From Ricordea florida (Eukaryota > Cnidaria > Anthozoa > Corallimorpharia > Ricordeidae): DNA of 64,000 nucleotides. The notes below the pieces were generated by a model. It did not search any database. It had not been told where the DNA came from and saw nothing but the letters and a program-made list of their open reading frames with translations. The stretch is taken from NCBI GenBank assembly GCA_949710005.1, contig OX453285.1, forward strand, positions 5,289,632 to 5,353,631, written 5' to 3'. Shown here in pieces: positions 7,509 to 25,602 of this stretch (the stretch's first letter is position 1; each line of letters starts with the position of its first letter). The position numbers and the translations under genes are program-made.

Positions 7509-7916
7509 AGTAGATGTAAAAAGCGGATTCCAAGACAATTTTAGCTTATAAGCTAATTTGACAAAGATTTTGTCTGTGATTTCATACAATCAAGGATTTA
7601 ACAAAGTACATGTCGGATGATCGGGTGGGCGGGTGGGTACCTCTGTGAAATTGTTAAGTTTCTGATAATCAATAAAGAGTGTGGATAGGCCGCCGCCAAG
7701 CCTATGTGAAATTGACATGAAGCTGATCAAAGATTAAACAAAGTACATGTCGGATGATCGGGTGGGCGGGCGGGTACCTCTGTGAAATTGTTAAGTTTCT
7801 GATAATCAATGAATAGTGCGGATAGGCCGTCGCAAAGCCAATGTTAAGCCGATGTCAAGTCTATGTGAAGCTTATAAAATCTGATGAAGGAATCTGACTC
7901 ATTTTCATTACATAAT
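7509..7916 (+). repeat. Left terminal inverted repeat (408 bp)
   Basis: It begins AGTAGATGTAAAAAGCGG and is base-for-base the reverse complement of 39,487-39,894 by direct reading. It holds two of the three copies of a ~85-bp subrepeat (core ACATGTCGGATGATCGGGTG at about 7,610 and 7,746). The match ends at CATAAT (7,911-7,916), after which the two sides belong to different units. Confidence 0.92.
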
Positions 7917-8225
7917 CAAAGATTAAACAAAGTACATGTCGGATGATCGGGTGGGCGGGCGGGTACCTCTGTGAAATTGTTAAGTTTCTGATAATCAATG
8001 AATAGTGCGGATAGGCCGTCGCAAAGCCATCGCCAAACCGTCACAAAGTCGATGCCAAACCGTCACCAAGCCTATATGAAATTGACACGGAGTTAGCCCT
8101 AACATAGTCTATATGAAATTGATGCCGGGTTCCAAGACAATTTACGTTTAATCTAATTTTGACAAAGATTTTATAAAAAATTGAATTCTAAAACAGATTT
8201 AAAGGATTAAATTGATTTGATAAAG
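7917..8225 (+). repeat. Unit A subterminal inverted repeat, left arm
   Basis: It matches the reverse complement of about 23,889-24,160 with small indels. It includes a third copy of the ACATGTCGGATGATCGGGTG subrepeat and extends up to and beyond the start codon of the first gene: the promoter box TTTAAAGG (8,198-8,205), the leader and the first codons are shared with the unit A polymerase gene at the other end. Confidence 0.85.
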
Positions 8226-8594
8226 ATGGAACAGAAAAACGTGAAAGAATTAAAATTACTCGCCAAAGAGCGAAGGATACCTAGATATTATAGGCTGTGT
8301 AAAGAACAACTTATTGAAGCTTTAGAAAATTTTATAACTCCTCATATAAAACAAACAAAAACTAATAAGTATAAGTGTATTCACGATAAATTAAAATATT
8401 ATTGTATGTTATGTGAAGGATCACAAATATGTGAACACAAAAAACAGAAATCGCGTTGTATTGAATGTAATGGCGGCAGTATTTGTGAGCATAAACGGAG
8501 GAGGTATCAATGTAAAGAATGTAATGGGAAAGGGATATGTATTCATGGGAAACAAAGATGGTTTTGTAGAATTTGTGAAAAACAAGATGAATAA
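8226..8594 (+). CDS. Cysteine-rich zinc-binding-type repeat protein 1 (unit A)
   Basis: A 122 aa protein. The first ~35 residues resemble a SAP/Rho-N-like helix-extended-loop-helix motif (KELKLLAKERRIP..), a fold that often binds nucleic acid. The rest is a run of short repeats of the form C-x-H-x(7)-C-x2-C-x-G, probably metal-binding; similar repeats are known in large DNA viruses and algal genomes. The ATG at 8,226 is chosen because the same leader and first codons occur at the polymerase gene in the opposite repeat arm, 21 bp after the TTTAAAGG box. A conserved stem-loop follows the stop. Paralogues: 8,692-9,078 and 24,509-24,967. Function unknown; an early DNA- or RNA-binding role is an inference. 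Confidence 0.75.
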   Translation: MEQKNVKELKLLAKERRIPRYYRLCKEQLIEALENFITPHIKQTKTNKYKCIHDKLKYYCMLCEGSQICEHKKQKSRCIECNGGSICEHKRRRYQCKECNGKGICIHGKQRWFCRICEKQDE

Positions 8595-8598
8595 AAAA

Positions 8599-8631
8599 TT
8601 ATGTTATATAACCTAATAAATGGTTACATAA
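8599..8631 (+). terminator. Conserved stem-loop, copy 1
   Basis: TTATG-TTATA-TAACC, a short loop, then GGTTA-CATAA: two 5-bp stems with a bulge. The same structure occurs at 11,755-11,787 and 25,603-25,633, each time just after a plus-strand gene. A transcription-termination or RNA-processing role is inferred from position. Confidence 0.5.
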
Positions 8632-8691
8632 CAAAAATAAGGCGTGGAATAAAATTGATTTAAAGACGTTCAATATTTAACAAAAATTAAA

Positions 8692-9078
8692 ATGGAACAA
8701 TTAAGATATTTATATACTTATGAATTAAAATTAATGGCAAAAGATCTAGAAATTAAAGGAAGATCAAAAATGAGTAAAAAAGAGCTAATTGATGAAATTA
8801 AAAAATTTACAGATGTGGATATTGATAAGTTAATTGAAAAAGTTACCACAACTAGTAAAATTATTTGCGATCATGGGAAATTAAAAAAATTTTGTAATGA
8901 TTGTAATAGGTATAATTGTAAGCATAATAGATATAAATATCGCTGCAAAGAATGTGGGGGAACACAAATATGTAAACACAATAATCAAAAACAACAATGT
9001 AAAGAATGCGGCGGATCACAAATATGCGAACACGGCAAACAAAAAGCTTCTTGTAAAGAATGTAAAAATAAAAATTGA
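8692..9078 (+). CDS. Cysteine-rich zinc-binding-type repeat protein 2 (unit A)
   Basis: A 128 aa protein. A SAP-like N-terminus (about residues 5-40, with the signature IKGRSKMSKKELIDE) is followed by a linker (DKLIEKVTTT) and about four CxH/CxxC repeats ending ASCKECKNKN. It is closer to the unit B protein at 24,509-24,967, including the linker and the final repeat, than to the neighbouring 8,226-8,594 protein. TTTAAAGA lies at 8,659-8,666, 26 bp before the ATG. Probably a nucleic-acid-binding accessory protein; the exact function is unknown. Confidence 0.75.
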   Translation: MEQLRYLYTYELKLMAKDLEIKGRSKMSKKELIDEIKKFTDVDIDKLIEKVTTTSKIICDHGKLKKFCNDCNRYNCKHNRYKYRCKECGGTQICKHNNQKQQCKECGGSQICEHGKQKASCKECKNKN

Positions 9079-9111
9079 TTTAAAGAAAAAATATAAATAT
9101 AAAATAAAACA

Positions 9112-9486
9112 ATGAAAAAATTAAATCTTAAATATTTAAACAATAATAAGCTTAATATTTGCGATTTTATAGAAGAAATAAAAGAAAACTTATTAAAAAA
9201 TTTAACAAAAAATAGGGAATATATAATTTATTATAATCAAAAAATTACTTTTTATTATCCAATAAATTTTGATGTAGAATATTATAATAAAAATTATGCT
9301 TTTGAACATTATATTTATTTTGGTGAAGAAACAAATTTTGGAGTTAGTGGTATTAACACTAGTAAATTTGCGAAAAAAATTTTAAAAATAGCTAATTATG
9401 ATTTTATTGAAAATGAATATGAATATGAATATGATCCATATTATGGTATGATTATTGCAAACGGAATGGAAATTGATCATTTTTAA
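9112..9486 (+). pseudogene. 5' part of an accessory gene split by transposon E (unit A)
   Basis: This open frame encodes the N-terminal part of a protein whose intact relative is the 193 aa unit B protein at 24,998-25,579 (shared start: leucine/asparagine-rich, then a DFIE-I-K..L motif). Homologous coding ends near 9,479; the last codons and stop come from the inserted transposon E (9,480-11,492). The matching 3' part resumes at about 11,493-11,743. A TTTAAAGA box sits at 9,079-9,086. The gene is therefore broken, although a truncated product of ~124 residues could still be made. Function of the family unknown. Confidence 0.75.
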
Positions 9487-11492
9487 CTCGTGGATACGCA
9501 AAGCGTATTTGCGAGTTTTTGTGGGGACTCCGATATGCAAATTGTCACTCACTCACTCACTCACTCACTCACTCACTCACTCACTCACTCACTCACTCAC
9601 TCCAGTGTAGACACACTTCGTAATTAGTCGGATAGAACTCGGGGGCACCGATATGAAGACGACAATTGTCGTGACCGAAGTCACGGAAGTCTGTTGATGA
9701 AAGTTCACGCTGAAAGTGTATCGTACCGTTGCCAGAGTTTGTAATGATTTTGTAGCTTAAGAGGACGATTAGCGAGGCCCTGTTAGGGGGAAATTTCGAC
9801 AAGCAACATAGCCTTGAAACAACGACATAAAGGACCTGAAATGGCGACGAACGACGAGCCGCTCACGGGAAATTACGACAGCGACCTTCGACCTTCCGAA
9901 ATTGCGCCGTGAAAAGGTTTGAAACTCAGACGCGCGACATAAACAACCTCACTAACAGGGCCTCATTAGCGGTCTTACTAAAATCAAAAGGAGTTTAAAT
10001 GTTTCCAGTTAGGACAATGACCAACTTGGAGACTGAATTTCATGAGCCTTTTACTCGGCCAGGCGCTAAACGTGAACAGATGATAACTATTCGCTTTTCC
10101 GACATCGACCGCCATCGACCGCCCCCAAGATTACAAGCAGTATATGAATTTCAGTTGGCTCGAAAGTGATCTGAAGATGAGAAAATCTCTTGCTAATGTA
10201 GTAAGCTTTGGTGAGAACTCATAGAGCGAAATTAGCACTTGAATGAGAACTTATATGAGCGAAATGAGTACTCGTTATTGAACGAAACTACTATAAATTG
10301 ACGAATCCATGATGTGAAACCGAAGAACTTCTGTGGCCAACCTGGATAAGAAACATCGCATGTAGGACTTTTCTACTGATTTAAGTGTTAGTACTAACAG
10401 GAATGGAGTTGTAGAAGTATTGGGACGGCCAAGAAGTATGTCAACATTTACTTGTAAATATGGAGGCGGCTGCCGTGACGGAGAACCACGAAGGTTACAA
10501 TGTAAGAAAGTCATTAAAGGGTTCGAAAACAGTAAGTCATGTAGAAAATGTATTAAGCGTTATATTATATACAATACACCACAAGCCGTTACAATGAAAA
10601 GTTTTCTGTCTATTGATTTCCGAATTTACCTTGAAGTGAACTAGATTGTGTTGAAGTAGACATGTTGGAAAAATAGGCTTACCTGTTTTGCTTACTGTTG
10701 TGTGACTCATATTTACATTATAAAAACAAGAAGTTATAAGGATAAAAACAAATATGTATTGCTGTATTAATGATGGCAAGTGTGATTTTTTTTAAGTGCA
10801 ACGCTGAATATATATACCACTGATAACCTAAAATGAGATGGTAATGTAAATAAACTAATTCAACTTGATAAAGGATTGAGAGTCTTAAGGATTTTAAGAT
10901 CATCACTAACATACTTTGCAAAAATGCAAGAAAGACTTGTTTGGTATGATTCGTCAGCTGGGCTATCCTACATGGTTTTGTTCATTATCAGCTGCAGAAT
11001 CAAGGTGGATATTTCTGTTGAATACATTGAATAGACTTGTAGACAACAAAAACTATAATGATGATAAAATTGACAATGTCATGACAACAAAATTCAGACC
11101 TTATTCAGAAGGACCCTGTTACATGTGTTAGAAACTTTGAACTCACAGACAGTGAGCAGCAGGATACCAGAACTACATTTGGTTTCGGTGCCATTTAATC
11201 CTGTACCCTTATGTTAAGTTATCAAATTTTTTAACAACTGTATGCTTGCCACCTGCCTTATAACTGATGCCTAGTGTAGTCAAATGATTGGCGTCATGTA
11301 CTCACTGTATGTTTATTTCAAAAAGCTACTCAGCTCCCTGGTCACTTTTATGTTGTGATTATAGATTATTAAAATTATCTTCAAGTTCATTCAATCACAA
11401 CTCTGAAAAAACACCTCGGTAATTTTTAAATTATTTCTTTTTTCTCTGTTTTGTAAACATATCCACGAGTTCACCATAGTCCTACTTTGATT
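9480..11492 (+). mobile_element. Transposon E, complete inner copy
   Basis: About 2.0 kb with short inverted ends (AACTCGTGGATA at 9,485-9,496; TATCCACGAGTT at about 11,460-11,471). It inserted into the accessory gene of unit A. The left half (to about 10,500) matches the reverse complement of 39,895-40,927 and the right half that of 6,591-7,508, so this copy gives the full, uninterrupted structure of the outer copy. It contains an (ACTC)n microsatellite (about 9,545-9,602) near one end. No transposase-like frame is present, so it is non-autonomous. A clear target duplication was not found; the two flanks share TTGAT. Confidence 0.85.
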
Positions 11493-11743
11493 ATGAAAAT
11501 GATGTTTATCTTGCTTATCATGATGATGAATGTAAAATTGATGTATTTGATAAAAATTTTATAATAAAAAAATTATATGTAAGTGTTGATTTAAGTGAAT
11601 ATAAGATTGAGCATAAAGAGTTATTTTACAAACCATTACATGATGAATTAATGACAGTAGCATGGCACCCATCTAGGTATTTAGATTGGTGTATTGATTT
11701 TGAAGAGTTAAGAGATTTGAAAGAAAGATGGGGTGGAGATTAG
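11493..11743 (+). pseudogene. 3' part of the split accessory gene (unit A)
   Basis: After transposon E an open frame runs to a TAG at 11,741. It matches the C-terminal half of the unit B 193 aa protein, including the conserved AWHPxRxxDWCxD segment just before the end. It has no start codon or promoter of its own. Together with 9,112-9,479 it accounts for one ancestral gene of roughly 200 codons. Confidence 0.75.
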
Positions 11744-11754
11744 TTAAAAAATAA

Positions 11755-11787
11755 TTATGTTATATAACCCAATAAATGGTTACATAA
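11755..11787. terminator. Conserved stem-loop, copy 2
   Basis: Same structure and almost the same sequence as 8,599-8,631. It lies between the plus-strand accessory gene and the convergent minus-strand virion block, so it could serve both directions. Confidence 0.5.
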
Positions 11788-11794
11788 CAAAAAT

Positions 11795-12427
11795 TTATTT
11801 AAATCTTAAACTAAAAGTTACGGATTGCCCATTTAGATAAAACCTTTTCCAATTAGCGTCTAAAATGGTTAAATCAAAGTGATTAATCAAGTTATCGTAT
11901 TTTCTAATTGGAATAGATGGGTAATCTTTTGATGGAATGTTTGCTAGCAATTGAGATGGTTGTATTTTTGTAAGATCTCCATTTTTACCTTTATTTGTGT
12001 ATGACATTTTATTATCAACTATACTGCATAAAAGTCTCAAAGGTTCTTTTATAGTTATATCTATTTGTTGTATTTTAAATAAAATCTCCGGCACCCCCAA
12101 AGAATTTTGCAAACCCTGGGTAAATTTAATGTTAATTGTTTTATTGTTGATTATGTAAGCAAAATTATCCCCGATAATCATTGTTATATTTTTACCCTTT
12201 TCGCTGAGCTCAATTAATATTTTTATATCATTTATGGAATATGTTCCTGGATTAAATATTACTAAAGACTTATCTTGTTCATCAGTTATTTTTTCTTGAT
12301 TCCTTAAAGTTATTAGTCTTTTTTTTGTTTTAATATTACAATCCAGGAGTTGTAATTCACTAACGTGTTTAATTGGAGGATCTAAATAAACCCTAGTTTC
12401 AGAATAATACATTGTAATGCTGAACAT
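11795..12427 (-). CDS. Candidate minor capsid (penton-like) protein, unit A
   Basis: A 210 aa protein. It has a strand-rich composition with the landmarks SITMYxSETRxYLDPP (start), QLLDCNI, PGTYS-DI (about 75), EPLRLLCSIVDNK, and a final HFDLTILD...LNGQSVTFSLRF. The C-terminal 'description of a quantity plus LNG-x-x-x-TFSL' pattern is typical of virion jelly-roll proteins. Length and position (distal end of the minus-strand virion block) fit the single jelly-roll penton of Polintons. It is well conserved with unit B (25,640-26,275). It is divergently arranged with the Rpb7-like gene, 52 bp apart. The penton role is inferred; a spike or cement protein is an alternative. Confidence 0.6.
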   Translation of the reverse strand: MFSITMYYSETRVYLDPPIKHVSELQLLDCNIKTKKRLITLRNQEKITDEQDKSLVIFNPGTYSINDIKILIELSEKGKNITMIIGDNFAYIINNKTINIKFTQGLQNSLGVPEILFKIQQIDITIKEPLRLLCSIVDNKMSYTNKGKNGDLTKIQPSQLLANIPSKDYPSIPIRKYDNLINHFDLTILDANWKRFYLNGQSVTFSLRFK

Positions 12428-12479
12428 ATTTTTGATTAAATTATATTAGTTTTTAGATTATTTATTAAAAATTAAGAAA
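12428..12479. promoter_or_regulatory. Bidirectional promoter region between penton-like and Rpb7-like genes
   Basis: Fifty-two AT-only-rich bases separate two divergent start codons. They contain TTTTTAGATTA, a variant of the T(T/C)TAAAGA box found upstream of most genes of the element. Confidence 0.45.
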
Positions 12480-12941
12480 ATGGAAACTAATATACTTCAA
12501 AGGCGTATATTTCTTGAACCTAAATATTTAGATAAAAATATTATGAATCATCTTTTAAAAACACTCAATAAAGTAACGTTTGGCCAATTTGATAAAGAAT
12601 ATGGATATATTATTTCAGTAAATCGTATAATAAAAATTGTAGATAATGAAGATACTTTTTTTGTTTTAAGATTTGAAGCAAAAACATATAAACCAAAAAT
12701 TAAACAAAAAGTTGCCGGCGTAGTATGCGGGGTTTATGAAGAAGGTATTTTTATTAAAGTTTTTGAAAAAATGAAGATTTTAATTTCACAGATTTATTTG
12801 AAAGATTATAAGTTTGATGAAATTTTTAATACATATGAAAATAATAATAACAAAATTAGAATAGGAGATAAAATTAATGTTAAAATAAAAGCAGTTAAAT
12901 ATGATAAAAATGGATTTTGTTGCATTGGGGTTTTAGTTTAA
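12480..12941 (+). CDS. Rpb7-like RNA polymerase stalk subunit (unit A only)
   Basis: A 153 aa protein. The N-terminal half (about 8-75) matches the tip domain of Rpb7/RpoE: RRIFLEPKYLDKNIMNHLL, then GYIISVNRI. The C-terminal half (about 80-153) is an S1/OB-fold: VAGVVCGVYEEGIFIKV, then the IRIGDKINVKIKAVKYDKNG segment and a final IGVLV. Total length is close to cellular Rpb7 (~170 aa). Rpb7 homologues are known in poxviruses and African swine fever virus, where they belong to the viral RNA polymerase. I know of none described in a Polinton. Unit B lacks it. Base composition is as AT-rich as its neighbours, so it is an established viral gene and not a recent host capture. It might recruit or replace the host polymerase stalk at viral promoters; this is inference. 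Confidence 0.75.
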   Translation: METNILQRRIFLEPKYLDKNIMNHLLKTLNKVTFGQFDKEYGYIISVNRIIKIVDNEDTFFVLRFEAKTYKPKIKQKVAGVVCGVYEEGIFIKVFEKMKILISQIYLKDYKFDEIFNTYENNNNKIRIGDKINVKIKAVKYDKNGFCCIGVLV

Positions 12942-12985
12942 ATATTTTGTTTTGATTACATCTTTAGATTTTTATAATCAAAACA

Positions 12986-14686
12986 TTATCGAAATAAAAA
13001 CCAAGATAATAATCCTCCAGCAAGCATTAAAACAATAAGAGTATTTTGATGGAAAGATGTTTCTGTATTACTAACTTCATCTGTTTTTCCTGATTCATCA
13101 ATATTGTTTAATTTAGGTTTTATATTTTTACTCGGCCGAGCATTAGTATTTAATAAAACCTTTGATGTTCCTAAACTATGGGTTATTCCAACATTTTTTG
13201 TTTCAACATTTATTGAATTATTTATGCCAAATTTCATATCTTTTGTTGCTGTTTTCAGATTATTATTGTACCCAATAACGCTTTCTGTATTTATAATTAA
13301 ATTGCTTGGCATCAACAAAACACCAGGAGCTATAGCCAAATCAAGCCGCGTTTTTGAATCATGAAGCGTTTTTTGATATCTTTCATTTGAAGTTGCGACA
13401 TCATTTTTAATCACAGAGCTTTCAAATAAATCTATAAAATTTTGCTGGGTATTAAATGCGCTTCCCCCCTTACCAAGAATTGAACTCCTACTAATAACTT
13501 GGGCTCCCAAAACGCAATAAACAAAAGCTTCAACCGATCTATTTATTCTTCCTAATCCAGCTTTTGTTAATCCATATCCAGATTCTGCTATAAACCAAGC
13601 ATATTGAAAATCAACAAAATGATCATTTCGTAACATAGATATTAAATCACCTTTATTTTTTCTACCCCCATCATCATAAAATTTATTTGAACTGCTTGGC
13701 CAAATATTAGCTTCTGTATCATAACCTCTTTTAATTCTAACATTTTGATATCCACCGCCCGTTCCTTGCGAGTCAACGCTTCCAGGAACGCTTTTGGGGT
13801 CTACATATCCTTTTCCATAATCAAAGAATATATCCCCCACACCTTGATTTGCCCCTCCCTTAAATCTAAAATCAGCTAAAGGTTTATTCCATCCTTTATA
13901 ATCTTGATTATTGCTTAAACCAAATTCTCCACATAAACGATTATAAGCATTTTTGTTGTATGGATTATTTTTTAAAGAAAAAGTTTTTTCGTCAGGTAAT
14001 GGTACAGATAATTCATATAATATTCTTCTTATTGTAAAGTAAATGTGAAATATAAAAAAACTTCTAATAACTTTTGGATAACTAAAAATAGCACTTAAAC
14101 TTACACCACATCCAGACGTTGCGCACCAAACCGCCATGTTTAATTGCTGCGGCCATTGATTAATATTTGGTTTATTCTTCCAAGCTCTAGCTTCTTTACC
14201 GCTAGTAAATCCTACAGTTTGATTTCTAAATACATTTTTCATTGGAATGGGCGTAGTGAAATAGTCTTTTTCTGAAACATATATAATTAAATTAATTAAC
14301 ATTTTTGTTACATTAAGAGCAAATTTATTGAATTTAATACCAGGTATTGGATATGTTTCTTTTGTAGATAATAAACTTTTTGGGAAAGATCCAACTTTAG
14401 TTTTATTTTCTGGAAACGAATCAACCTTGGGTTTATTTTCTGGCCCCAAATCATGCTGTAATAATATTACCAAAATATCAGGAATATCATCAATCCATGT
14501 TTTTCCAGAAGGATCATCATGAGACATAACTGTTACTCCATTAACTTTCCATTTAATATATCCCCCATTTGAATCATTTACAAACGTAAATTTATCAAGG
14601 TTAGCTTTTGGGTATCGGGCTTTGAAATCATCTAATAAAGATATAGTGTTATTTATGTTGGTAAGACTTTTTTTTATTTTATCCAT
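12986..14686 (-). CDS. Large membrane-anchored virion-block protein (unit A, 566 aa)
   Basis: A 566 aa protein, 61% or so identical by eye over its core to the unit B 522 aa protein (26,500-28,068). Conserved blocks: RYPKA-LDKFTFVNDS-GGYIKWK near the start, WPQQLN-AVWCATSGCG (about 185-200), FHIYFTIRRILYELS-PLPDE, a GLTKAGLGR-NRS-EAFVYC-LGAQV block (about 375-405), and LDLAIAPG-L-MPSN-IINTES (about 450-470). It ends in one hydrophobic segment and a short LFR tail (tail anchor). A TCTTTAGG box is at 14,713-14,720. No enzyme motif is recognised. The conserved Cys residues in WCATSGCG could be catalytic or disulphide-bonded. Position and tail anchor suggest a virion or assembly protein. Confidence 0.65.
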   Translation of the reverse strand: MDKIKKSLTNINNTISLLDDFKARYPKANLDKFTFVNDSNGGYIKWKVNGVTVMSHDDPSGKTWIDDIPDILVILLQHDLGPENKPKVDSFPENKTKVGSFPKSLLSTKETYPIPGIKFNKFALNVTKMLINLIIYVSEKDYFTTPIPMKNVFRNQTVGFTSGKEARAWKNKPNINQWPQQLNMAVWCATSGCGVSLSAIFSYPKVIRSFFIFHIYFTIRRILYELSVPLPDEKTFSLKNNPYNKNAYNRLCGEFGLSNNQDYKGWNKPLADFRFKGGANQGVGDIFFDYGKGYVDPKSVPGSVDSQGTGGGYQNVRIKRGYDTEANIWPSSSNKFYDDGGRKNKGDLISMLRNDHFVDFQYAWFIAESGYGLTKAGLGRINRSVEAFVYCVLGAQVISRSSILGKGGSAFNTQQNFIDLFESSVIKNDVATSNERYQKTLHDSKTRLDLAIAPGVLLMPSNLIINTESVIGYNNNLKTATKDMKFGINNSINVETKNVGITHSLGTSKVLLNTNARPSKNIKPKLNNIDESGKTDEVSNTETSFHQNTLIVLMLAGGLLSWFLFR

Positions 14687-14789
14687 ATTATTGTTTTTTG
14701 CTATTATGCAAGTCTTTAGGCTGAATTAACCTCTCTTCTAATTCCCGCAAAACAATTACAACCAACATCGGTTTTCTCATATGAAATTT

Positions 14790-15386
14790 TTAATGACCTG
14801 GATTTGTTAATTCTTTTAATAGATTTTCGCGCACTTCTCTCCTTATCACAGTCATATCCAAGTTTTTTTCCGAGTCTTTTCTAAATTTTTGTCGTATTTC
14901 TTGTTTTAGTTTTTGGAACTTTTCCAATTCCGCCAAAATTATAGAAAATTCTTGATCGGATATAACATTATCTTTCAAAGCTTTTGAAACTAAATCATTA
15001 ATGGTGTTTAATTTTGATTTTGCAATTGCGGCGGTTTGTTCATGTTTACTAACTTTATGAGAAAGTTTTTTTGATGCAATTCCAAATCCAACCGATAATC
15101 CACCAAAAACCCCACCCACAACCCCCAAAGGAATCCCGACAATAGCGCCAAAACCAGTAAGAGATGTACTCAAACCACTCGCTGATAGAATAACAGAAAT
15201 AAAGCCGCCAGAAACACTAATTTTTGTGCATATGGTTCTAGCCCTATTATATTTTTTCCTTACTTCTTCGTAATGTTTAATTTCTTTCTCAAGATTTTGT
15301 AATACTTCGCTTGATTTTTGCAGTCTGAAATTAATAGGATCTGTATTATTGGGTAATACAGGGTAAATTCTATTGTATTCATCCAT
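14790..15386 (-). CDS. Coiled-coil / membrane-hairpin protein (unit A, 198 aa)
   Basis: An N-terminal coiled coil (about 22-50), a long glycine-rich hydrophobic region (about 52-105) that could form a membrane hairpin, then a second coiled coil (about 110-190). It is nearly identical in length and close in sequence to the unit B protein (28,197-28,793), with the stretch SKHEQTAAIAKSKLNTINDL fully conserved. A TCTTTAGA box is at 15,413-15,420. The layout recalls membrane-remodelling or membrane-penetration virion proteins; no specific family is assigned. Confidence 0.65.
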   Translation of the reverse strand: MDEYNRIYPVLPNNTDPINFRLQKSSEVLQNLEKEIKHYEEVRKKYNRARTICTKISVSGGFISVILSASGLSTSLTGFGAIVGIPLGVVGGVFGGLSVGFGIASKKLSHKVSKHEQTAAIAKSKLNTINDLVSKALKDNVISDQEFSIILAELEKFQKLKQEIRQKFRKDSEKNLDMTVIRREVRENLLKELTNPGH

Positions 15387-15429
15387 ATTGTATTTTACTA
15401 CTCAACATGAAATCTTTAGATTGGCTTTG

Positions 15430-16425
15430 TTACTTTCTCTTCTTTTTTATACTTTCCACAAAATATAGAACTACAGCCATTATCAAAAGCCAAGCATTCT
15501 TTCCTAAAAACCCAACAACTTCACCCGCTGTTTTGAAAAGAAAGCTAACTATTGCGCCAACCATCCCAGGCAATATTTCACCTAGTTTTTTACCTATAGT
15601 TTTCAATCCTTTTCCCAATCCCCTACCTAATGTTGATAAACCCTTTGAAAGATTAGAAACTATAACACTAATTACTAAAGCAACAGCGGCAGCAACCGCA
15701 AATGCTGTAAAACCATGCTTTTTGAATAAATCTTTCACACGTTCTCTCAAAGACATTGTTTCTTGGATTCTTTCTCTTTCGGCAACATCGTTTGCTATAT
15801 CTTCATCGTTTTCTATAACTTCTGTATTTAAATTTTCAATCTCCGCCTCTTCTTCTGCGGTTTTATTGGTTTTATTATCAAGAACTTTTTTTCTTTCAAG
15901 TCTTTCATTTTGTTTTTCTTTTTTATTCGCAATTTCTGTATCGAGTTGTTCAACTATTTCTGATCTACTTGGGCCTAAATCATCTTTTAATTTTCCAGGT
16001 CCAAGTTTTTCTTTTATTTCACCTGTTTTTTTATCATATCTTCTAAACTCATCATCACCCGTATGAACATATATTCCACCCTTTGGCCCCTCAATTGCTG
16101 GTAATTCTATTCCACCACGAATGCGTTGAAAAAATGAAACGATTTCTTTCATTTTTGCTCTTGGCCGCGCTTTTTTTATAGCTTCTTCTGCGATTTCTAA
16201 TTCCTTATTTTTATTTGCTAATAATTTGCTTTTTTCATTGAATGAATTTTCTTGCTCTTCATCTTCACCATCAAAAGTGGGATTTTGAAAAGTACTAGTA
16301 GATGTGGTCGTAATTATATTATTAGCAACTTCTTCACCATCTTCATCATCTTCATCATCTTCATCATTTTCAGCATCATCATCATTATCTTTTGATAAAT
16401 CTTCTAATGGTATATATTCCGCCAT
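15430..16425 (-). CDS. Acidic coiled-coil protein with membrane-active C-terminus (unit A, 331 aa)
   Basis: It begins MAEYIPLEDL and a long Asp/Glu run (about 12-35), then charged coiled-coil sequence (about 130-225). The C-terminal ~100 residues hold two hydrophobic stretches separated by a glycine/lysine amphipathic section (GRGLGKGLKTIGKKLGEILP) and end in a lysine cluster. Only the C-terminal domain and the acidic start are well conserved with unit B (28,832-30,076, 414 aa); the middle has diverged almost completely. A membrane-lytic or inner-membrane virion role is inferred from the amphipathic C-terminus. TCTTTAAA lies at 16,450-16,457. Confidence 0.65.
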   Translation of the reverse strand: MAEYIPLEDLSKDNDDDAENDEDDEDDEDGEEVANNIITTTSTSTFQNPTFDGEDEEQENSFNEKSKLLANKNKELEIAEEAIKKARPRAKMKEIVSFFQRIRGGIELPAIEGPKGGIYVHTGDDEFRRYDKKTGEIKEKLGPGKLKDDLGPSRSEIVEQLDTEIANKKEKQNERLERKKVLDNKTNKTAEEEAEIENLNTEVIENDEDIANDVAERERIQETMSLRERVKDLFKKHGFTAFAVAAAVALVISVIVSNLSKGLSTLGRGLGKGLKTIGKKLGEILPGMVGAIVSFLFKTAGEVVGFLGKNAWLLIMAVVLYFVESIKKKRK

Positions 16426-16461
16426 GATTTTTTACTAATCAGTAAGAAATCTTTAAACAAA

Positions 16462-16854
16462 CTATAAAAATTTACTAACTGCGTAACCTAAACCTAACAT
16501 TCCAGCTCCAACATATACCATTTCTCCTGTTTTTTGTTCATCGCTTGGTTTGTAATAATCAGAGAATTTTGGCTCATGCATTTGACTATACAATTCAAAA
16601 GCTTGGTCTGTAGCCGACATATTTTTTGATGCTTGATATTTTTCATCTTTTTTCTTATTTTCCCAATCAATCATTTTTTGTCTTTTTTCCTGATATTCTG
16701 CGTAATCTCTTTGATATTTTTCCAATGCTTTATCGTGTCGTATTTTTTCTGTATCCGCATTATGTCCTGCAAAATGTTTTGCGATAGCATTTCCACCAAC
16801 AAATGCTGTTGCATTTAATACGGCTCCAAAAACCGCCATTACTATTGATGCCAT
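16462..16854 (-). CDS. Small membrane protein (unit A, 130 aa)
   Basis: Hydrophobic segments at both ends (about 1-22 and 108-128) flank a charged helical middle with DTEKIRHDKA-EKYQRDYAEY and a conserved EPKFSDYY motif. It is the same length as the unit B copy (30,127-30,519). Its promoter box (ATTTAGAGGA, about 16,884-16,893) lies within the end of the upstream 72 aa gene in both units. Probably an integral protein of a virion membrane; function unknown. Confidence 0.65.
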   Translation of the reverse strand: MASIVMAVFGAVLNATAFVGGNAIAKHFAGHNADTEKIRHDKALEKYQRDYAEYQEKRQKMIDWENKKKDEKYQASKNMSATDQAFELYSQMHEPKFSDYYKPSDEQKTGEMVYVGAGMLGLGYAVSKFL

Positions 16855-16860
16855 ATTTAA

Positions 16861-17079
16861 TTATTTTGGTAAAATCTTTTGATCCTCTAAATATGTTTTA
16901 AGATACATACTTCCGGATAATACAGCCACCCATTTTGCATAATTTGTAATACTTGAGGATGGGTCGCTCAAAAATGATTCTTTCATTACCTTTTTAGCCA
17001 CATACCCAACTCCAGCCCCCAATCCGATAAGTGTCGCTGAATCAGTTACAGTTTTCACAAGTTTGTTTTCGGTTGACAT
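16861..17079 (-). CDS. Small two-helix membrane protein (unit A, 72 aa)
   Basis: Two hydrophobic segments (about 15-30 and 48-62), with the conserved stretch DPSSSITNYAKWVAVLSGSM. About 90% identical to the unit B copy (30,532-30,750), making it one of the best conserved genes of the pair. A CCTTTAGA box is at 17,105-17,112. Function unknown. Confidence 0.7.
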   Translation of the reverse strand: MSTENKLVKTVTDSATLIGLGAGVGYVAKKVMKESFLSDPSSSITNYAKWVAVLSGSMYLKTYLEDQKILPK

Positions 17080-17122
17080 AATTTTTTACTGTATCAGTAA
17101 GAAACCTTTAGATGACTTTAGA

Positions 17123-17548
17123 TTATTCCATTCCTAATGATTTTGGGGTTAAATGCAATGGAATTTTTGAAGGTTGGGGTATTTGCGGGACTTGTGATAA
17201 ATCAACTATCCTATTAGAATATTCAACCCTAGCTTTTTCCTTATATCTCATAAAAAGATCAAATGCTGTAAACCCCAATCCAACAACGGATAAAACAGTA
17301 GTAAAAGATAACTCTGGAAGCCATGATTTAACTTCGCGGTGATTTGATTCATCATTTTGCTCTGTAGCCCGCAGGGTCTCTTCTCGTTTCATCTCCCTAG
17401 CTAATGCTTCTTTTGCTTTTTTATTATATTCCGCTAATTTCTTTCCAGCCGCGACTTTTTTAGGATCTTTCTCCCTCTTTTTAGTATCTTTATTTTCAGG
17501 CGTGGGATCGGCCGTAATTTGCTCAACTTGTTCATTTTGTTCAGACAT
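17123..17548 (-). CDS. Lysine-rich single-pass membrane protein (unit A, 141 aa)
   Basis: A basic, charged N-terminal half (about 20-60, KK/REK-rich) is followed by LPELSFTTVLSVVGLGFTAF (a predicted membrane segment, about 80-100) and a proline-rich tail. The start at 17,548 (MSEQNEQV) is preferred over an upstream in-frame ATG at 17,599 because the CCTTTAAA box (17,571-17,578) lies between them and the unit B gene has the same arrangement. It is conserved with 30,819-31,307. Function unknown. Confidence 0.65.
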   Translation of the reverse strand: MSEQNEQVEQITADPTPENKDTKKREKDPKKVAAGKKLAEYNKKAKEALAREMKREETLRATEQNDESNHREVKSWLPELSFTTVLSVVGLGFTAFDLFMRYKEKARVEYSNRIVDLSQVPQIPQPSKIPLHLTPKSLGME

Positions 17549-17582
17549 TATTTTACATATAATTAAGAAACCTTTAAACGGG

Positions 17583-18098
17583 TTAGTGAACAGTATCATA
17601 CCCGCTATCAGCCTGCTCAGTAGTCTGTTCAGTTATAACTTGTTGATTTTTGTTGAATTTAATGTGTTTAGCTACTTGAAATAGCCCACTAGCAAGGGCG
17701 GCCAATCTCCCCGCTTTTAATGCTAAGAGCCCAACAATGTTTGTTAATTCGCGATTTACCAAATCATCATTCTTCAAATCCTTACAAAGAGATTCTATAT
17801 CATCAACCGGAACTAAATATGAAATAAGTTTGGAAACTAATTGAAGGGATGAATCTACCAATCCCCCATTAATTTTTTTACCCATTACCGCTTGATACCG
17901 GTTAAAATATTTTTCTACATCACGTCCCGATAATTTTTTTATATCACCCAAACTCATTTCAACTCCTAAATATTCCTTTGTTGTTCCGAGCGCCGCGAGA
18001 ATTGCGAGTGATTCTTGTTTTATTTCAAGTTCATCATTATCATTTACCCCGGTCTTTACTTCAGTTTTTTCTTCAATGTAATCTTCAACGTTTGTCAT
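17583..18098 (-). CDS. Conserved helical protein next to the packaging ATPase (unit A, 171 aa)
   Basis: An acidic N-terminus of variable sequence, then a strongly conserved helical core (LAILAALGTTKEYLGVEMSL, and a DVEKYFNRYQAVMGKKINGG block) and a hydrophobic GLLALKAGRLAALASG segment (about 125-145). The start codon lies just after the stop of the ATPase gene, with TTTTTAAA overlapping that stop. No family recognised. Its constant place beside the ATPase suggests a role in packaging or portal-vertex assembly (inference). Confidence 0.65.
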   Translation of the reverse strand: MTNVEDYIEEKTEVKTGVNDNDELEIKQESLAILAALGTTKEYLGVEMSLGDIKKLSGRDVEKYFNRYQAVMGKKINGGLVDSSLQLVSKLISYLVPVDDIESLCKDLKNDDLVNRELTNIVGLLALKAGRLAALASGLFQVAKHIKFNKNQQVITEQTTEQADSGYDTVH

Positions 18099-18102
18099 CT
18101 TT

Positions 18103-18729
18103 TTAAATCACTTCGGGTATCTCTAAATAGCAATTAAATGGATGGCGTAAAGATAAACATAACCTAGAATATTTTTCAGTTTTCAGGAGTTGAACAAACT
18201 TTTTACCCAATTCATAATCCAAATCACCACCATAATCTTCGAAAAACATTTTCATACCTTTCTGCGATGGATTATGAAAAGTAACAACGCAGGCTACATT
18301 TTCCCTGAATGGTTTTGCTATTGATGTTAATTGCTGGGTTAAAACCCACATTGATAATCCATGATGTCTTCCGGAGAATGCTAAATCTATAAATTTATTA
18401 GATCTTTTCTTCAAATCAGAGGATACGGCGCAATCATCTAAAATTATTAGTGTATTGAGTCCAGAAAATAAAATTTGACAATCATTTAACAATTCATTAA
18501 TCTCATCGAGATTACTTGCATCGGGTGATAATACAAAGAATCTCTTGTCCCCACGAGCAAAATTATGATATGTTTTATTTTTAGAATAAGTTGGGCAAAT
18601 TAAAACAATATATTCAAAAACTTTGCGGAAAGGGCCTCGAAGCTGTTCAATTAGGTACTTTGTTTTCCCACAATTTGTTGGTCCAGTTATAATACAATGA
18701 AATGGGATTTTATCTCGCAAATCTTCCAT
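18103..18729 (-). CDS. A32-like genome-packaging ATPase (unit A)
   Basis: A 208 aa ATPase of the FtsK/HerA-A32 type used by Polintons, adintoviruses and giant viruses to fill capsids. Walker A is GPTNCGKT (residues 16-23), Walker B LIILDD (94-99), and a sensor-like TQQ is at 131-133. Full-length for the family and ~90% identical to the unit B copy (31,959-32,585). A TTTTTAGA box is at 18,752-18,759. It lies between the capsid gene and the 171 aa gene. Probably functional. Confidence 0.88.
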   Translation of the reverse strand: MEDLRDKIPFHCIITGPTNCGKTKYLIEQLRGPFRKVFEYIVLICPTYSKNKTYHNFARGDKRFFVLSPDASNLDEINELLNDCQILFSGLNTLIILDDCAVSSDLKKRSNKFIDLAFSGRHHGLSMWVLTQQLTSIAKPFRENVACVVTFHNPSQKGMKMFFEDYGGDLDYELGKKFVQLLKTEKYSRLCLSLRHPFNCYLEIPEVI

Positions 18730-18763
18730 GATTTTTGTATCATAACATTATGTTTTTAGATTC

Positions 18764-19618
18764 TCAGTACTTAATTGATCTCAAACTTGAATTCATTATT
18801 TCCATCATTGCATCAGCAACAACAAACATATAACATGTTATAGTTCCTGATCCGCTTTGTTTCCTTTTTATTTCTATTTTTACGCCATCGTGTGTATTAT
18901 TTAGAGCTAGTCCTCCACCGTGAATACTATTATCTGGGTGAGTTCTCGTATCAACCCAAAGAGCAAACTTGTTCGTGTAAAAATCCCCTTCTTTCAATGA
19001 AATTTGTAAACCATCATCTCTATGAAAGCGTTTTTTCGCGGATTCCCAAAGATCGGGTGGAATCATTCCTCTAGAGTATATTCTATTTGGTACACCATCA
19101 ACATCAATTTCTACTGAAGATATACCTGGATTATAAAAATTTTCAGAATCCCTTGCTCCTGCAGCTTGAGGTAATAAAAACAAAAATAATACCCCAGTCA
19201 TTGATCTTCTCGGTAAATTAATATGCTGATTAATAACACCATCACCACCAATGGAAAATGTAAAAGTTTTGTGTAAGGTAATATTTTCATAAAAGAATCC
19301 TTTACCAACTTGATATGTTGATTGTGCCTCGCGGGCTAAGTATTCGCTTGAAATTGAAGAATATTCTAATTCTAAGTTTTTTATTGAATATGATGGTGTT
19401 TTAGTTGTATCGGAATAAATAAGAATATTATTAATTGGGGCGAGTGTAATCTCAAATATTAAATGATTTTCTAATGCTTTTGGATAAAAAACCCCATGAT
19501 CGTTTAATATTGGGTGGTTTATTGGTATTCTATACTTTGATCCGTGAACATTAGCGAGAATTACTTCCTTTGTTTCTTTTTGAGTTTTCTTTGCATCGCC
19601 CGCATTTGTTCTAAGTTT
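18764..19618 (-). pseudogene. Major capsid protein gene, 5'-truncated (unit A)
   Basis: The frame is open and matches unit B's capsid protein from about residue 132 to the end (landmarks NHPILNDHGVFYPKAL, INQHINLPRRSMTG, GGLALNNT, final RSIKY). The first ~131 codons, the promoter and the facing end of the integrase gene are missing. The sequence stops matching at 19,618, where a short scrambled filler begins. No ATG lies upstream; the first in-frame ATG (19,201) would give only 145 residues. A complete double jelly-roll is impossible, so unit A depends on unit B or another copy for capsid. Confidence 0.85.
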
Positions 19619-19647
19619 CTAAGATCAAGTTCTAAGTTCTAAGATCA
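19619..19647. other. Deletion junction with templated filler
   Basis: Between the broken capsid and integrase genes lie overlapping repeats of TTCTAAG and TAAGATCAAG. In unit B the same two genes are separated by a 33-bp intergenic region, and about 1.05 kb of that interval is absent here. Copying of short local sequence is a hallmark of polymerase-theta-type end joining. Confidence 0.75.
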
Positions 19648-20049
19648 AGGGTATGGGCGAAAAGATTACCAGCTATTCTAAAAACTTTGAATAATACAAA
19701 AACAAGAATAACCGGTAAAGAGCCTGATGAGGCTATAAAAATGAAAGAGGTTGATATTGAACCAAAAAATTATCAACGAGTTGTGGGGCTTGATGAGATT
19801 AGATTACCTCCTAGTGTTAAAGTTAGATATCTATTATCTCCGGGCGAACTTGAGGGTGGTGAAAAAAGTCGGGCTACAGATCCTATTTGGAGTCCCAAAG
19901 TTTATGATATTTCTAGAAGTGTGATTTCGCCTAATCAGCCGGTTTTATATTATTTAGTGAATGGACCGCGACGAGGATTTGTTCGTGAAGAATTACAGGT
20001 TATACCTTATGATACAGAACTTCCGCCAGATTCTGTTTTGAAACGATAA
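19648..20049 (+). pseudogene. Integrase gene, 5'-truncated (unit A)
   Basis: It matches unit B integrase from about residue 209 to the end. The catalytic core (all three acidic residues) is missing; only the C-terminal SH3/chromo-like DNA-binding region remains, with landmarks GFVREELQVIPYDT. An in-frame ATG at 19,687 could give a 120 aa product. Its 3' end overlaps the convergent polymerase gene by 43 bp, as in unit B. It cannot integrate DNA on its own. Confidence 0.85.
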
Positions 20050-23000
20050 TGTCCGTATGCAAAAGTATTTATTCCATCCTCACAAATTATTCTCTTATCA
20101 TCATCGGCAGATAGTGCAACTTTATTAACCGTTTCAGAATAAATATCATGTAAACGACTTCTTATTACGTTCATCTTTCTCATCTGGGGTTCTTTATTTA
20201 ATAGACATCTCTTATAATCATCAAAGTTTATGGTCTTTTTTACAACTGATGTCTTTACCCCTTTATCCTTTTTTATCTCTTCTCCTTTATCCATCCTGTA
20301 TGAGTATAGCTTTGCTCGTAGACCAACAAATTCGACTATCTGTTCGCCCCCGGCTTCATCCTTAAACATATTTATAACTTTTTTATTTATGTTGGTTTTT
20401 ATACCAGATTTATGTTTTTTAGGAAAGTTACTTGTGTCAAACTTATACTTTACATCGGGGCTTATATCTTTATAGAAATCCTCTGTTTCTATATTGTAAA
20501 CAAGACTGTCTGTGTCTGTAAACAACAATTTTGCTTTTTCTCCATATTTTGGTTTTATATAATTATAATGAAAATCGTACATTATTGTTTTACTTAAATC
20601 TAAAATACACATACCCAAATAAACGGGTTTATTGAATACTAACTTTTTTTTCTTCATATGTATGGCCACAAGATTTTCACAAAAGATAGTTCGATGTTGA
20701 TAGTTAGGTTTTGTTATTAATTTTTTTGCATCTTTTTCATTAGTAACTAATTTAATATCAACCCTATTTCTAATGTTTTCCATAGTTTTACCAAACACAG
20801 AATTATTCATTAACTTAAAGAAATCTTTCTCAAAATCGTTATTTCCTTTTACTCTGAGTTTGGTATTCAAATCAATGTATGGTTTTAACCAATCAGACTC
20901 TTCAAATGTAATTCCTCTATGAATCTTTGTTATTTTTAATCCCAAACTTTCATAAAGTTTTAGTGTTTCATAATGAGCAACATACTTTGCCCTATTGTTT
21001 AGATTTGGAATCAGTTTCTCAACATTATTAATTAAAAGTCTCTCTGGAGCAAGCGGATAATCATTATGTAAATCATGAAGATGAATTGGGTATTCTAAAT
21101 CAACCTCTAGTATGCAAGGCATATTTTTCCAGTATGTAAGTTCTTTTTCATTCATCCATCTAAAACCGTGAGTAGGTAGTGGCTTACTCATTGCTCCTCC
21201 ATATAAATTGTTTGCATCGAGATATATAATATAACTTATTATTTTGTTAATATCAAAATTTTTCATGTATTTGTTGTTTGCTTTCCCATATCTAGTAGAA
21301 ATCATAGATACGCCGCCCCGAATACCTCTCTCAATCATAAGCAGCATATCTATGTCAGTTAACAACTCTAAATTTACTTTTGTTATCTTTAATGCTGCAT
21401 CCCAAGCTAGCCCGGGTGCAGTATAATAGTGCGCAGGATCTAATCCATAGTTTTTAATACAAACATCTCTAAAATTCTCAAATGCGTCAGCTAAAAGTAA
21501 TACATCTGACATAAGATATAAGTCATGATATTCCCTCATTGTTTTAATATTAAAAGTTTTCCAAACATTTTGCGCATGTTTATAATCATTATCTGATATA
21601 TTTTCATCGTTTAGTATTGAATAAAATGCATCTTTTGGTGGAAGTTGGTTTGTACTAAGTTTATCTAATCCATCAAACCAATCATATGGAAATACGCCCT
21701 TTCTCAGCAATAACTTTAATTCTTCACCTTCATAGAAAATATTTAAGTTTCTGAAAGATTCTTTTGGTAAATTAGTTACTAATTTTTCTAAACTTGTTGA
21801 CATAAATTTAAATGAATCTATGAATCTAATATCGCGCTTAACCTCAATTTGCTTACCTTCTTTATTTGTAAATTCATCAACCACAATCTGTTTTGTGAAA
21901 GAAATATACTTTTCCTCATTATTTGGTATGCAGTTTATTTTACCTTCTGTTGCGCCGAGATTCTTGATAAAAATATGCGCATCATATCCAGATAGATTAT
22001 GAAATATTACCGGGATGAATTTTGGTATCTTATAATTTAAGTTACATTCATTATGGGCTGCTCCTCTATACTTTCCTGTAAGATGACAATGATCTAATAC
22101 CTTATCTTCTCCCAATTTTTCTTCACATATATGGCAGTGAGTAGCATTTTCATATTCTTTTTTATCCATTTCTGTCATATCCACCGCCTTCTTATGATAT
22201 TTTATCTTATTATAAATTTTCTTAATATCCTGCTCCAAATTTTCTGTAAATATCTGTGGGATATCATCATCCGGAGATTCGGCGGTAAATTGTACAAGCT
22301 CGGGCGAAAATATTTTATCATCAAAAGACTTTATGAGATAGCTGAATCCTGATGCTTTATGTTTCTGGTATTGATTAGTATAACTTTCGCTTTCATCTGG
22401 CGAACAGGTATGTATTTTCTCTGGATAACACTCAAAATCTGCATATATAACAAATGGTGCGCGCATTTTTCTATTATAATTATTAAATTTAATATACTTT
22501 GGATTGCCATCTTCATCTTTTGGCATATCAATCTTAACTTCTTTATTTGCGTCGCAGTATTCTATATGTTTTTCCAATGATTTTTCTGACTGAAATGCGT
22601 TTAAACATCTGGGACAAAAATACATCTTAGATTTGTGTTTACTAACTTTCGCGGCTAACAATCTACTCATATTCTTTATCCAACAATAATGATCATTTTC
22701 ATCTTCTGATATTAAAAGTAGGTTGATTAAATAACCTTTTTGCTTTTTACTTATTCTTAATGGGTATACATCATCATTATCATACCCATAGACATTAATC
22801 GTGTAATAGGGATTTTGCTTTTCAAACCTATCAATCTGTTTTAATGAAGTGGGGAATTCTATTCCTGACCAGTTGAAGTTCTTCGAATTTTCGACCATTT
22901 CTTTGTTTTTTCTCTCTGGGTGAATATCTTTTTTATATACAGCAGAAGTTACGGCCCACTTAAAGCACTCATGATCATTCTCATTCCTAACATTAATAAT

Positions 23001-23888
23001 CGCATTTTTTACCGCTAATTTTTGTGGTAAATTAATATATGAACTTCCAACAAAAGGTTCAAAAGGATCAATGTTGATATCAAAATATTCAACTTGATAA
23101 AATTGCCAACCAGAACCTTCATTTTGAAACTGTTCGACCTTTTCAAGTTGGCGATTTGTCATAGTATCGAATAATTCAGATAAATCGGTTGATGAAGTAA
23201 TTGTTTCTACTGTTGAATGAAAGTATCCTGAATTTTCGTCGGTTTGTTTTGTAGCAGGATTCTTTTTTATAAACTTACATGTAAATATAAATTTTATCTT
23301 TATCGGTTTCTTTTGCTTGTTAATTAAATCTATAACTTTTGGTTTGATTTTATTAATAAATGTTTTTGGGCCATACCCTTTTTGCCCATCTATCCTGTGG
23401 GTTTTTAGATATCCCCTTAATGCTCTTTGTTGTTCTTTTGGAACAAATCGATTAGCATTTTCCTTCAATTCATCTCTCACACTATCAGATATATTTACCT
23501 TTCTTTTAGATTTTTGTGGTTTATTATTAGTAATTTTTATAACATTTTTACGGATTAAATCCCTAAACTTTTTAGAAAACTCCTCTTCATCCAGCACCTT
23601 ATATGAATAATTTCCCCAATTAAAAACTTTGTTTGGTTTTAAAATTGGAACATTAATCTCAGGTATTGGCTCATCCATAATTAATCTTTGTATTTTATTA
23701 TCTAAAACCGCAGAAATTTCGGGGATTTTGCGCAACTCCTTGAGAACTACATCTTTTGGTACTTTCTTACCTTTTTCTTTCATAATTTTCTCCAACTGAT
23801 TTACTATCGATCTTTTTAAATCTTTGCCATTTTCATCAATAGCTTGTTTTAGCGTTTCTATAAAATTCAAACTGTTTTTCTGTTCCAT
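20007..23888 (-). CDS. Protein-primed family B DNA polymerase (unit A, 1,293 aa)
   Basis: Replicative polymerase of the Polinton/adenovirus type (pPolB). In order, approximate residues: C2H2-like zinc finger (YFCPRCLNAF, 423-445), exonuclease motif I YADFEC (482-487), a Cys/His cluster CHICEEKL...DHCHLTGKYRG (585-612), exonuclease II FHNLSGYDAH (629-638), exonuclease III YLMSDVLLLADAF, polymerase motif A YLDANNLYGGAM (889-900), motif B KLMNNSVFGKTMEN, motif C DTDSLVY (~1,125). All catalytic aspartates are present, so it is probably active. The N-terminal ~350 residues may include the terminal protein. The ATG at 23,888 is chosen over an upstream TTG. CCTTTAAA lies at 23,909-23,916. Unlike unit B it lacks an N-terminal SAP-like domain, the proline-rich linker and a CGKCDVCK cluster. 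Confidence 0.92.
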   Translation of the reverse strand: MEQKNSLNFIETLKQAIDENGKDLKRSIVNQLEKIMKEKGKKVPKDVVLKELRKIPEISAVLDNKIQRLIMDEPIPEINVPILKPNKVFNWGNYSYKVLDEEEFSKKFRDLIRKNVIKITNNKPQKSKRKVNISDSVRDELKENANRFVPKEQQRALRGYLKTHRIDGQKGYGPKTFINKIKPKVIDLINKQKKPIKIKFIFTCKFIKKNPATKQTDENSGYFHSTVETITSSTDLSELFDTMTNRQLEKVEQFQNEGSGWQFYQVEYFDINIDPFEPFVGSSYINLPQKLAVKNAIINVRNENDHECFKWAVTSAVYKKDIHPERKNKEMVENSKNFNWSGIEFPTSLKQIDRFEKQNPYYTINVYGYDNDDVYPLRISKKQKGYLINLLLISEDENDHYCWIKNMSRLLAAKVSKHKSKMYFCPRCLNAFQSEKSLEKHIEYCDANKEVKIDMPKDEDGNPKYIKFNNYNRKMRAPFVIYADFECYPEKIHTCSPDESESYTNQYQKHKASGFSYLIKSFDDKIFSPELVQFTAESPDDDIPQIFTENLEQDIKKIYNKIKYHKKAVDMTEMDKKEYENATHCHICEEKLGEDKVLDHCHLTGKYRGAAHNECNLNYKIPKFIPVIFHNLSGYDAHIFIKNLGATEGKINCIPNNEEKYISFTKQIVVDEFTNKEGKQIEVKRDIRFIDSFKFMSTSLEKLVTNLPKESFRNLNIFYEGEELKLLLRKGVFPYDWFDGLDKLSTNQLPPKDAFYSILNDENISDNDYKHAQNVWKTFNIKTMREYHDLYLMSDVLLLADAFENFRDVCIKNYGLDPAHYYTAPGLAWDAALKITKVNLELLTDIDMLLMIERGIRGGVSMISTRYGKANNKYMKNFDINKIISYIIYLDANNLYGGAMSKPLPTHGFRWMNEKELTYWKNMPCILEVDLEYPIHLHDLHNDYPLAPERLLINNVEKLIPNLNNRAKYVAHYETLKLYESLGLKITKIHRGITFEESDWLKPYIDLNTKLRVKGNNDFEKDFFKLMNNSVFGKTMENIRNRVDIKLVTNEKDAKKLITKPNYQHRTIFCENLVAIHMKKKKLVFNKPVYLGMCILDLSKTIMYDFHYNYIKPKYGEKAKLLFTDTDSLVYNIETEDFYKDISPDVKYKFDTSNFPKKHKSGIKTNINKKVINMFKDEAGGEQIVEFVGLRAKLYSYRMDKGEEIKKDKGVKTSVVKKTINFDDYKRCLLNKEPQMRKMNVIRSRLHDIYSETVNKVALSADDDKRIICEDGINTFAYGHYRFKTESGGSSVS

Positions 23889-24160
23889 CTTTATCAAATC
23901 AATTTAATCCTTTAAATCTGTTTTTAGAATTCAATTTTTTAAATTGTCCTGGATCCCGACAACAGATTTTATAAGGCTTCACATAGACTATGTAGGGGCC
24001 GGCTCCGTGTCAATTTCATATAGGCTTTGTGACGGTTTGGCGATGGCTTTGCGACGGCCTATCCGCACTATTCATTGATTATCAGAAACTTAACAATTTC
24101 ACAGAGGTACCCGCCCGCCCACCCGATCATCCGACATGTACTTTGTTTAATCTTTGATTA
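23889..24160 (-). repeat. Unit A subterminal inverted repeat, right arm
   Basis: It matches 7,911-8,225 in inverted orientation, including the ACATGTCGGATGATCGGGTG subrepeat (about 24,119-24,138, complement) and the polymerase leader. Compared with the left arm it has a few short deletions. The outermost 408 bp expected of a complete Polinton end are missing; unit B starts directly. Confidence 0.82.
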
Positions 24161-24167
24161 TGTGATG
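24155..24167. other. Junction between unit A and unit B
   Basis: Up to about 24,160 the sequence matches unit A's repeat; from TGATGTGTGATTATGGGG (24,161 on) it matches, inverted, the unit B right end beginning at 39,486. At the outer right end the same unit B sequence is instead followed by the 408-bp terminal repeat. The two genomes are thus fused through their subterminal repeats, with one pair of termini lost. Confidence 0.8.
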
Positions 24168-24967: not shown

Positions 24968-24997
24968 TTTAAAGATATAAAATAAAATTATTAAAAA

Positions 24998-25292: not shown

Positions 25293-25323
<31 letters not shown>

Positions 25324-25579: not shown

Positions 25580-25602
25580 TCTTATATTTCTGTTACTACT
25601 AA

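Follow-up and report, generated by a model that had tools for sequence, protein, structure and literature searches.

A Polinton of the corallimorpharian Ricordea florida almost certainly carries a gene for a member of the Rpb7 family of RNA polymerase stalk subunits. This gene is part of a stretch of 64,000 nucleotides of contig OX453285.1 (assembly GCA_949710005.1, positions 5,289,632 to 5,353,631, forward strand), hereafter the window, where it belongs to an element (Polinton A) that is interrupted by a second one (Polinton B). We tentatively propose, with slightly less than even confidence, that its product acts as a lone Rpb7-like stalk that docks on a foreign polymerase core, probably without Rpb4. 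An earlier first-pass annotation, made by a model from the sequence, had noticed the gene and its setting; it missed the interrupting Polinton without the gene, the protein family, and the reduced tip loop and ends.

12480..12941, forward strand: gene for the Rpb7-like stalk protein, 153 amino acids (aa) plus stop, open reading frame (ORF) intact
12504..12638, forward strand: SHS2_Rpb7-N (tip) domain, residues 9-53 (Pfam PF03876, E = 2.3e-6, 28.1 bits, cut-off 24.8)
12690..12911, forward strand: S1 (OB) domain, residues 71-144 (Pfam PF00575, E = 1e-8, 35.9 bits, cut-off 22)
7509..39894, no strand: Polinton A, carrier of the Rpb7 gene, about 15.0 kb when nested B and an inserted repeat are not counted, with ends AGTAGATG

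The two-domain organisation proposed in the first-pass annotation, a tip domain and an S1 domain at 12480-12941, is borne out by profile searches, in which both Pfam domains exceeded their cut-offs, the match being neither absent nor confined to a generic S1 domain. In a single-sequence search of the chains in the Protein Data Bank (PDB), human RPB7 was matched across residues 6-152 of the window protein (E = 1e-6), which amounts to a near end-to-end match to the RPB7 subunit of RNA polymerase II (Pol II). A profile of the six-member family described below retrieved Pol II RPB7 at 3.5e-11 and archaeal Rpo7 at 3e-5 from the PDB sequences, and its matches below 1e-4 were Rpb7/Rpo7-type subunits throughout, one of them subunit 7 of Pol V; among its 22 matches up to E 10 there was no stalk of Pol I, Pol III, a poxvirus or African swine fever virus (ASFV). 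When 32 RPB7-type sequences were added to the profile, Pol III was reached at 2.9e-10 and Pol I at 4.9e-4, with no viral stalk among the 34 matches.

That a Polinton carries the gene, as had also been claimed, is confirmed by an rve integrase, an A32-type ATPase, a capsid match at the cut-off, and inverted repeats with short direct repeats, which are distributed over A and the nested B. Polinton A is flanked by ACCCT (5 bp) on either side, and its inverted repeats are 98.9% identical over 547 columns and 98.5% identical over 68 columns. The usual Polinton target-site duplication is 6 bp. B appears to be intact, is flanked by ATTATGT (7 bp) on both sides and sits in a terminal repeat of the older A, whose left repeat preserves the empty site. 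It encodes an A32-type ATPase (Pox_A32), an rve integrase (2.1e-9, 38.0 bits, cut-off 32.6), a protein of 1417 aa that includes an endonuclease VII domain, and a capsid protein that scores 24.0 bits with Capsid_N, exactly at the cut-off of 24, and has no match in the PDB sequences. At A the target site is not as clean as at B: in the copy of the surrounding repeat found within A (9477-11492), about 28 additional bases stand at the expected insertion point of A.

7509..8240, forward strand: terminal inverted repeat at the left end of A, aligned over 7508-8048 and 8174-8240
9477..11492, reverse strand: copy, within A, of a repeat that was apparently the insertion target of A itself (6590-7508 plus 39899-40927)
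18103..18729, reverse strand: A32-type packaging ATPase of A (Pfam Pox_A32, 3.1e-11)
18764..19201, reverse strand: capsid gene remnant of A, ORF from the first ATG, matching the B capsid protein (residues 269-412) at 80% identity
19741..20049, forward strand: C-terminal integrase remnant of A, matching the B integrase (residues 240-339) at 79% identity
24164..39486, no strand: Polinton B (nested; 15.3 kb), without an Rpb7 gene, its inverted repeats 98.9% identical in an alignment of 358 columns
26276..26499, no strand: position in B equivalent to the Rpb7 locus, a gap of 224 bp between the counterpart genes

Polinton A is thus a decayed copy, in which the N-terminal parts of the capsid and integrase are lost, yet its Rpb7 ORF is whole. 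Upstream of the capsid remnant, the homologous reading continues without a start, as judged by eye. The capsid and integrase genes of A (18764-20049) are cut at about the same point between them, as if by a single internal deletion. A and B share 11 gene pairs that are 51-93% identical over their aligned parts, and no remnant of an Rpb7 gene was found at the corresponding site of B (26276-26499).

The window protein belongs to a family of its own. A search with its sequence alone against 5.8 billion proteins gave two relatives, P0002 (85% identity) and P0003 (59%). Both recurred in a second search, based on an alignment that included a human RPB7 segment, whose 120 listed matches (of 1022) also contained P0141 (59%), P0200 (54%) and P0205 (55%); the other 115 listed matches are 20-30% identical to the window protein and mostly RPB7 by name or endowed with both Rpb7 Pfam domains. 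The family comprises at least six predicted proteins of 151-153 aa, its relatives being 54-85% identical to the window protein, and further members are possible among the 902 matches beyond those listed. SHS2_Rpb7-N and S1 are both found at E ≤ 0.01 in all six members. The tip domains of the five relatives are the weaker matches, since their precomputed Pfam annotation shows S1 alone. In a tree built from the six members, 22 of the 115 other listed matches (animal-type RPB7s), one yeast segment and 13 archaeal Rpo7 loci, the family comes out as a single clade (100/100), set off by a branch about 4 changes per site long. This tree is silent on the origin of the family: it is midpoint-rooted, its eukaryotic rows do not form one group, two Polinton rows have an odd composition, and giant-virus Rpb7s are missing from it, as scans of viral contigs with Rpb7, ATPase and capsid queries returned no locus. 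The source may have been a host, something older, or a giant virus, the last being an option that the first-pass annotation had raised.

This conservation bears on the notion that the gene is a captured passenger, functionless in the element or even a pseudogene. Such a fate would fit the absence of the gene from nested B as well as the decay of the capsid and integrase genes of A. However, six proteins of 151-153 aa that have the same short tip hairpin, the relatives being 54-85% identical to the window protein, argue for long maintenance, and an identity of only 20-30% to the 115 other listed matches argues against a recent host copy, making a mere passenger very improbable.

The stalk also seems to stand by itself. 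As the first-pass annotation had it, no other polymerase subunit accompanies the gene: Pfam scans of 39 of the 44 ORFs in the window, leaving out those at 19741, 27824, 28408, 29127 and 38071, detected no second RNA polymerase subunit. How such a protein might work can be approached through the interfaces of its yeast counterpart, which, according to PMC10382679, contacts the polymerase core through its K1-loop (residues 15-18) and tip loop (63-67), Rpb4 through residues 2-5, parts of A1, K2, B1 and B4, and residues 161-171, and the KOW3 domain of Spt5 through G149 and other residues. We compared these positions in an alignment of the six family members with the 22 animal-type RPB7s, for which the mean similarity across all columns is 43%.

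12519..12530, forward strand: K1-loop PKYL, the core-docking loop of Rpb7, residues 14-17 (interface from Table 1 of PMC10382679)
12603..12680, forward strand: shortened tip hairpin, residues 42-67

The K1-loop is 100% similar, ranks first of 149 four-residue windows and reads PKYL or PKFL in all six members. Docking on a core is supported indirectly, because this core-binding loop is the best conserved segment. The same observations speak to a different role, in which the protein does not dock at all and acts as an S1-type RNA-binding protein on viral or host mRNA (in export, decay or translation) or titrates the partners of Rpb7. The S1 domain would serve such a role; a pure S1 protein, however, needs neither a tip domain, which is matched in six of six members (E ≤ 0.01), nor a K1-loop as its most conserved window, and we therefore consider it unlikely.

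The N-terminal aromatic residues that touch Rpb4 are missing in all six members, and a quadruple mutant of residues 2-5 of yeast Rpb7 is lethal (PMC10382679). The B4 contacts are 30% similar, the sole inner set of Rpb4 contacts to fall below the average. The contacts to KOW3 of Spt5 are 41% similar. In the sequence alignment, the family proteins stop at about yeast residue 164 (P0003 earlier), so that approximately residues 165-171 are missing. Independence of the window protein from Rpb4 is suggested at the level of sequence, and a mode of action without Rpb4, as in ASFV vRPB7 (PMC10881513), would be a fair reading by analogy. The tip hairpin is shortened as well, to 25 residues in all six members, where yeast has 33 and each of three other Rpb7s (two animal, one archaeal) has 31, which weakens the claim that the protein is an ordinary Rpb7, although not that it is a relative of Rpb7.

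In the mechanism that we tentatively favour, the tip domain would dock on a polymerase core that the element does not encode, most likely that of host Pol II in the nucleus. The stalk of the element would then take the place of Rpb4/7, probably in an Rpb4-free form and with the S1 domain turned towards the nascent RNA. The hold of Rpb4- and Spt5-linked control over the enzyme could be loosened in this way, which would favour the genes of the element. The first-pass annotation had conjectured that the stalk could recruit host polymerase to viral promoters.

Several observations weigh against this proposal. The protein is known here from its gene sequence alone, and docking itself is what we infer from it. 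A second segment that enters the core, the tip loop, is reduced in six of six members (residues 62-67, 6% similar); in yeast, a deletion of residues 63-67 leaves cells viable but sensitised (PMC10382679). The conservation of the K1-loop may serve folding instead. As for Rpb4, the contact positions in K2 (50% similar) and B1 (48%) are near the 43% average and thus not specially eroded. The C-terminal loss by itself says little, because the yeast deletions 162-171 and 167-171 are viable and 161-171 alone is lethal (PMC10382679); moreover, the structural alignment with the window protein extends to human residue 168 despite the loss in the sequence alignment. The glycine that contacts Spt5 (yeast G149) is replaced by A in five of the six members and by Q in one. 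A good structure model leans on the RPB7 rows of its alignment, since AlphaFold with three family members alone gave a pLDDT of 37.8. The decay of A counts on the same side. Finally, a Polinton setting is unproven for the family as a whole, having been seen for the window member only, out of six: the contigs of P0002, P0003, P0141, P0200 and P0205 comprise 16425, 13855, 11271, 10500 and 1830 bases, respectively, and none of them was recognised among the 120 listed of 953 matches in a capsid search.

A further clue to the transcription of these elements comes from the sequences upstream of their genes. In each of the two elements, 9 of 13 genes are preceded by the motif [TC][TC]TAAA[AG][AG], at a distance of 27-37 bp from the ATG, which makes 18 of the 26 ORFs in 8226-39122. 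When the upstream regions were shuffled 500 times (preserving dinucleotides, or else by plain shuffling), the mean was 0.3 and the maximum 3 motif genes per element; the observed counts are neither blind nor independent, as pattern and distance were chosen after inspection of the sequences and A and B share many homologous genes. The motif is possibly a promoter element of the Polintons' own, and by its sequence it may be a TATA-like element or an initiator. No such motif precedes the Rpb7 gene. The stalk could be imagined as a replacement, probably free of Rpb4, that is swapped for Rpb4/7 on a borrowed polymerase, either host Pol II or that of a co-infecting giant virus, and retargets or reprogrammes it for the element's own genes with their TTTAAAGA-type motif, an idea that we regard as doubtful. 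If true, such a swap would mean that one subunit suffices to take over a multisubunit RNA polymerase.

The Polinton might also be a satellite, either parasitic on a large DNA virus with an Rpb4-less polymerase or induced by it, the protein serving as a replacement stalk that steers the viral enzyme to the Polinton genes. Stalks without Rpb4 are described for vaccinia virus and ASFV (PMC10881513), giant-virus Rpb7s have their fold in common with the window protein, and a promoter motif is common to mavirus-like virophages and the giant virus CroV (PMC8547959), just as A and B have an upstream motif in common. However, no giant virus is known here, the polymerase-stalk matches at the sequence level are to cellular Rpb7/Rpo7 and not to viral proteins, and the motif, picked post hoc, is absent from the Rpb7 gene itself and may also be a TATA-like element used by host Pol II. 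On balance, a satellite of this kind appears quite unlikely.

Among the closest known systems, Pol II RPB7 differs from the window protein in its identity of 20-30% among the matches listed, in not being encoded by a Polinton, and in having the N-terminal aromatics and last residues that the window family lacks; the tip hairpin of the family is six residues shorter than in two animal RPB7s. Vaccinia Rpo18 and ASFV D339L (vRPB7) have the same Rpb7 fold, are virus-encoded and have no Rpb4 partner. Archaeal Rpo7/RpoE' likewise has the same fold with a weaker sequence match (E = 3e-5), but is partnered by Rpo4 and has a tip hairpin of 31 residues in the one measured. The carrier resembles Polintons, adintoviruses and 'meldviruses' in its integrase, A32-type ATPase, capsid profile of the nucleocytoplasmic large DNA virus (NCLDV) type, inverted repeats and size of about 15 kb. 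Among the open-licence papers listed in searches on Polintons, adintoviruses, virophages and Mavericks, we found no report of an Rpb7 in a Polinton. In the main text of four papers on Polinton-type elements (PMC11071296, PMC11071308, PMC10120064 and PMC12220804), 'Rpb' does not occur, and 'RNA polymerase' appears only in references or in connection with RNA viruses. The passage on polymerase subunits in PMC8363768 concerns a poxvirus, and that of PMC11253617 infers nuclear replication from missing polymerase subunits. Viruses are usually classed as bringing either their own RNA polymerase or none, and a lone stalk would be an intermediate case. If the protein docks, it would offer a small natural tool for dissecting the role of Rpb4/7 on Pol II and bear on the exchange of transcription genes among Polintons, their hosts and giant viruses.

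The immediate neighbours of the Rpb7 gene and the largest gene of A are as follows.

12428..12479, no strand: divergent intergenic region of 52 bp, common to the Rpb7 gene and the 210-aa gene
11795..12427, reverse strand: gene for a 210-aa protein, 57% identical to its B counterpart (25640-26275)
12986..14686, reverse strand: gene for a 566-aa protein with no Pfam match, in convergent orientation to the Rpb7 gene and at 51% identity to its B counterpart
20007..23888, reverse strand: gene for a 1293-aa protein with an endonuclease VII domain (Pfam Endonuclease_7, 3.1e-5)

The first-pass annotation had placed the Rpb7 gene next to a promoter region shared with a virion gene. The divergent arrangement with its 52-bp spacing holds, and on the side of the 210-aa gene it contains TCTAAAAAC at -30; the virion identity of the neighbour finds no support, as the 210-aa protein has no Pfam match above a cut-off. 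The 1293-aa protein (20007-23888) contains what we take to be PolB-like motifs A, B and C, recognised by eye, and no PolB match was obtained for the large genes with Pfam or the PDB sequences. Large PolB-like genes with a recombination endonuclease VII domain are present at 20007-23888 and 34869-39122. Rho_N scores above the cut-off in 8692-9078 and just below it in 8226-8594, and SAP/Rho_N-like N-termini are discernible by eye in the products of 24509-24967, which also has cysteine-rich repeats, and of the 34869-39122 gene. Outside the elements, the same 106-bp tandem repeat forms two arrays of opposite orientation, at 41789-42532 and 61660-62399.
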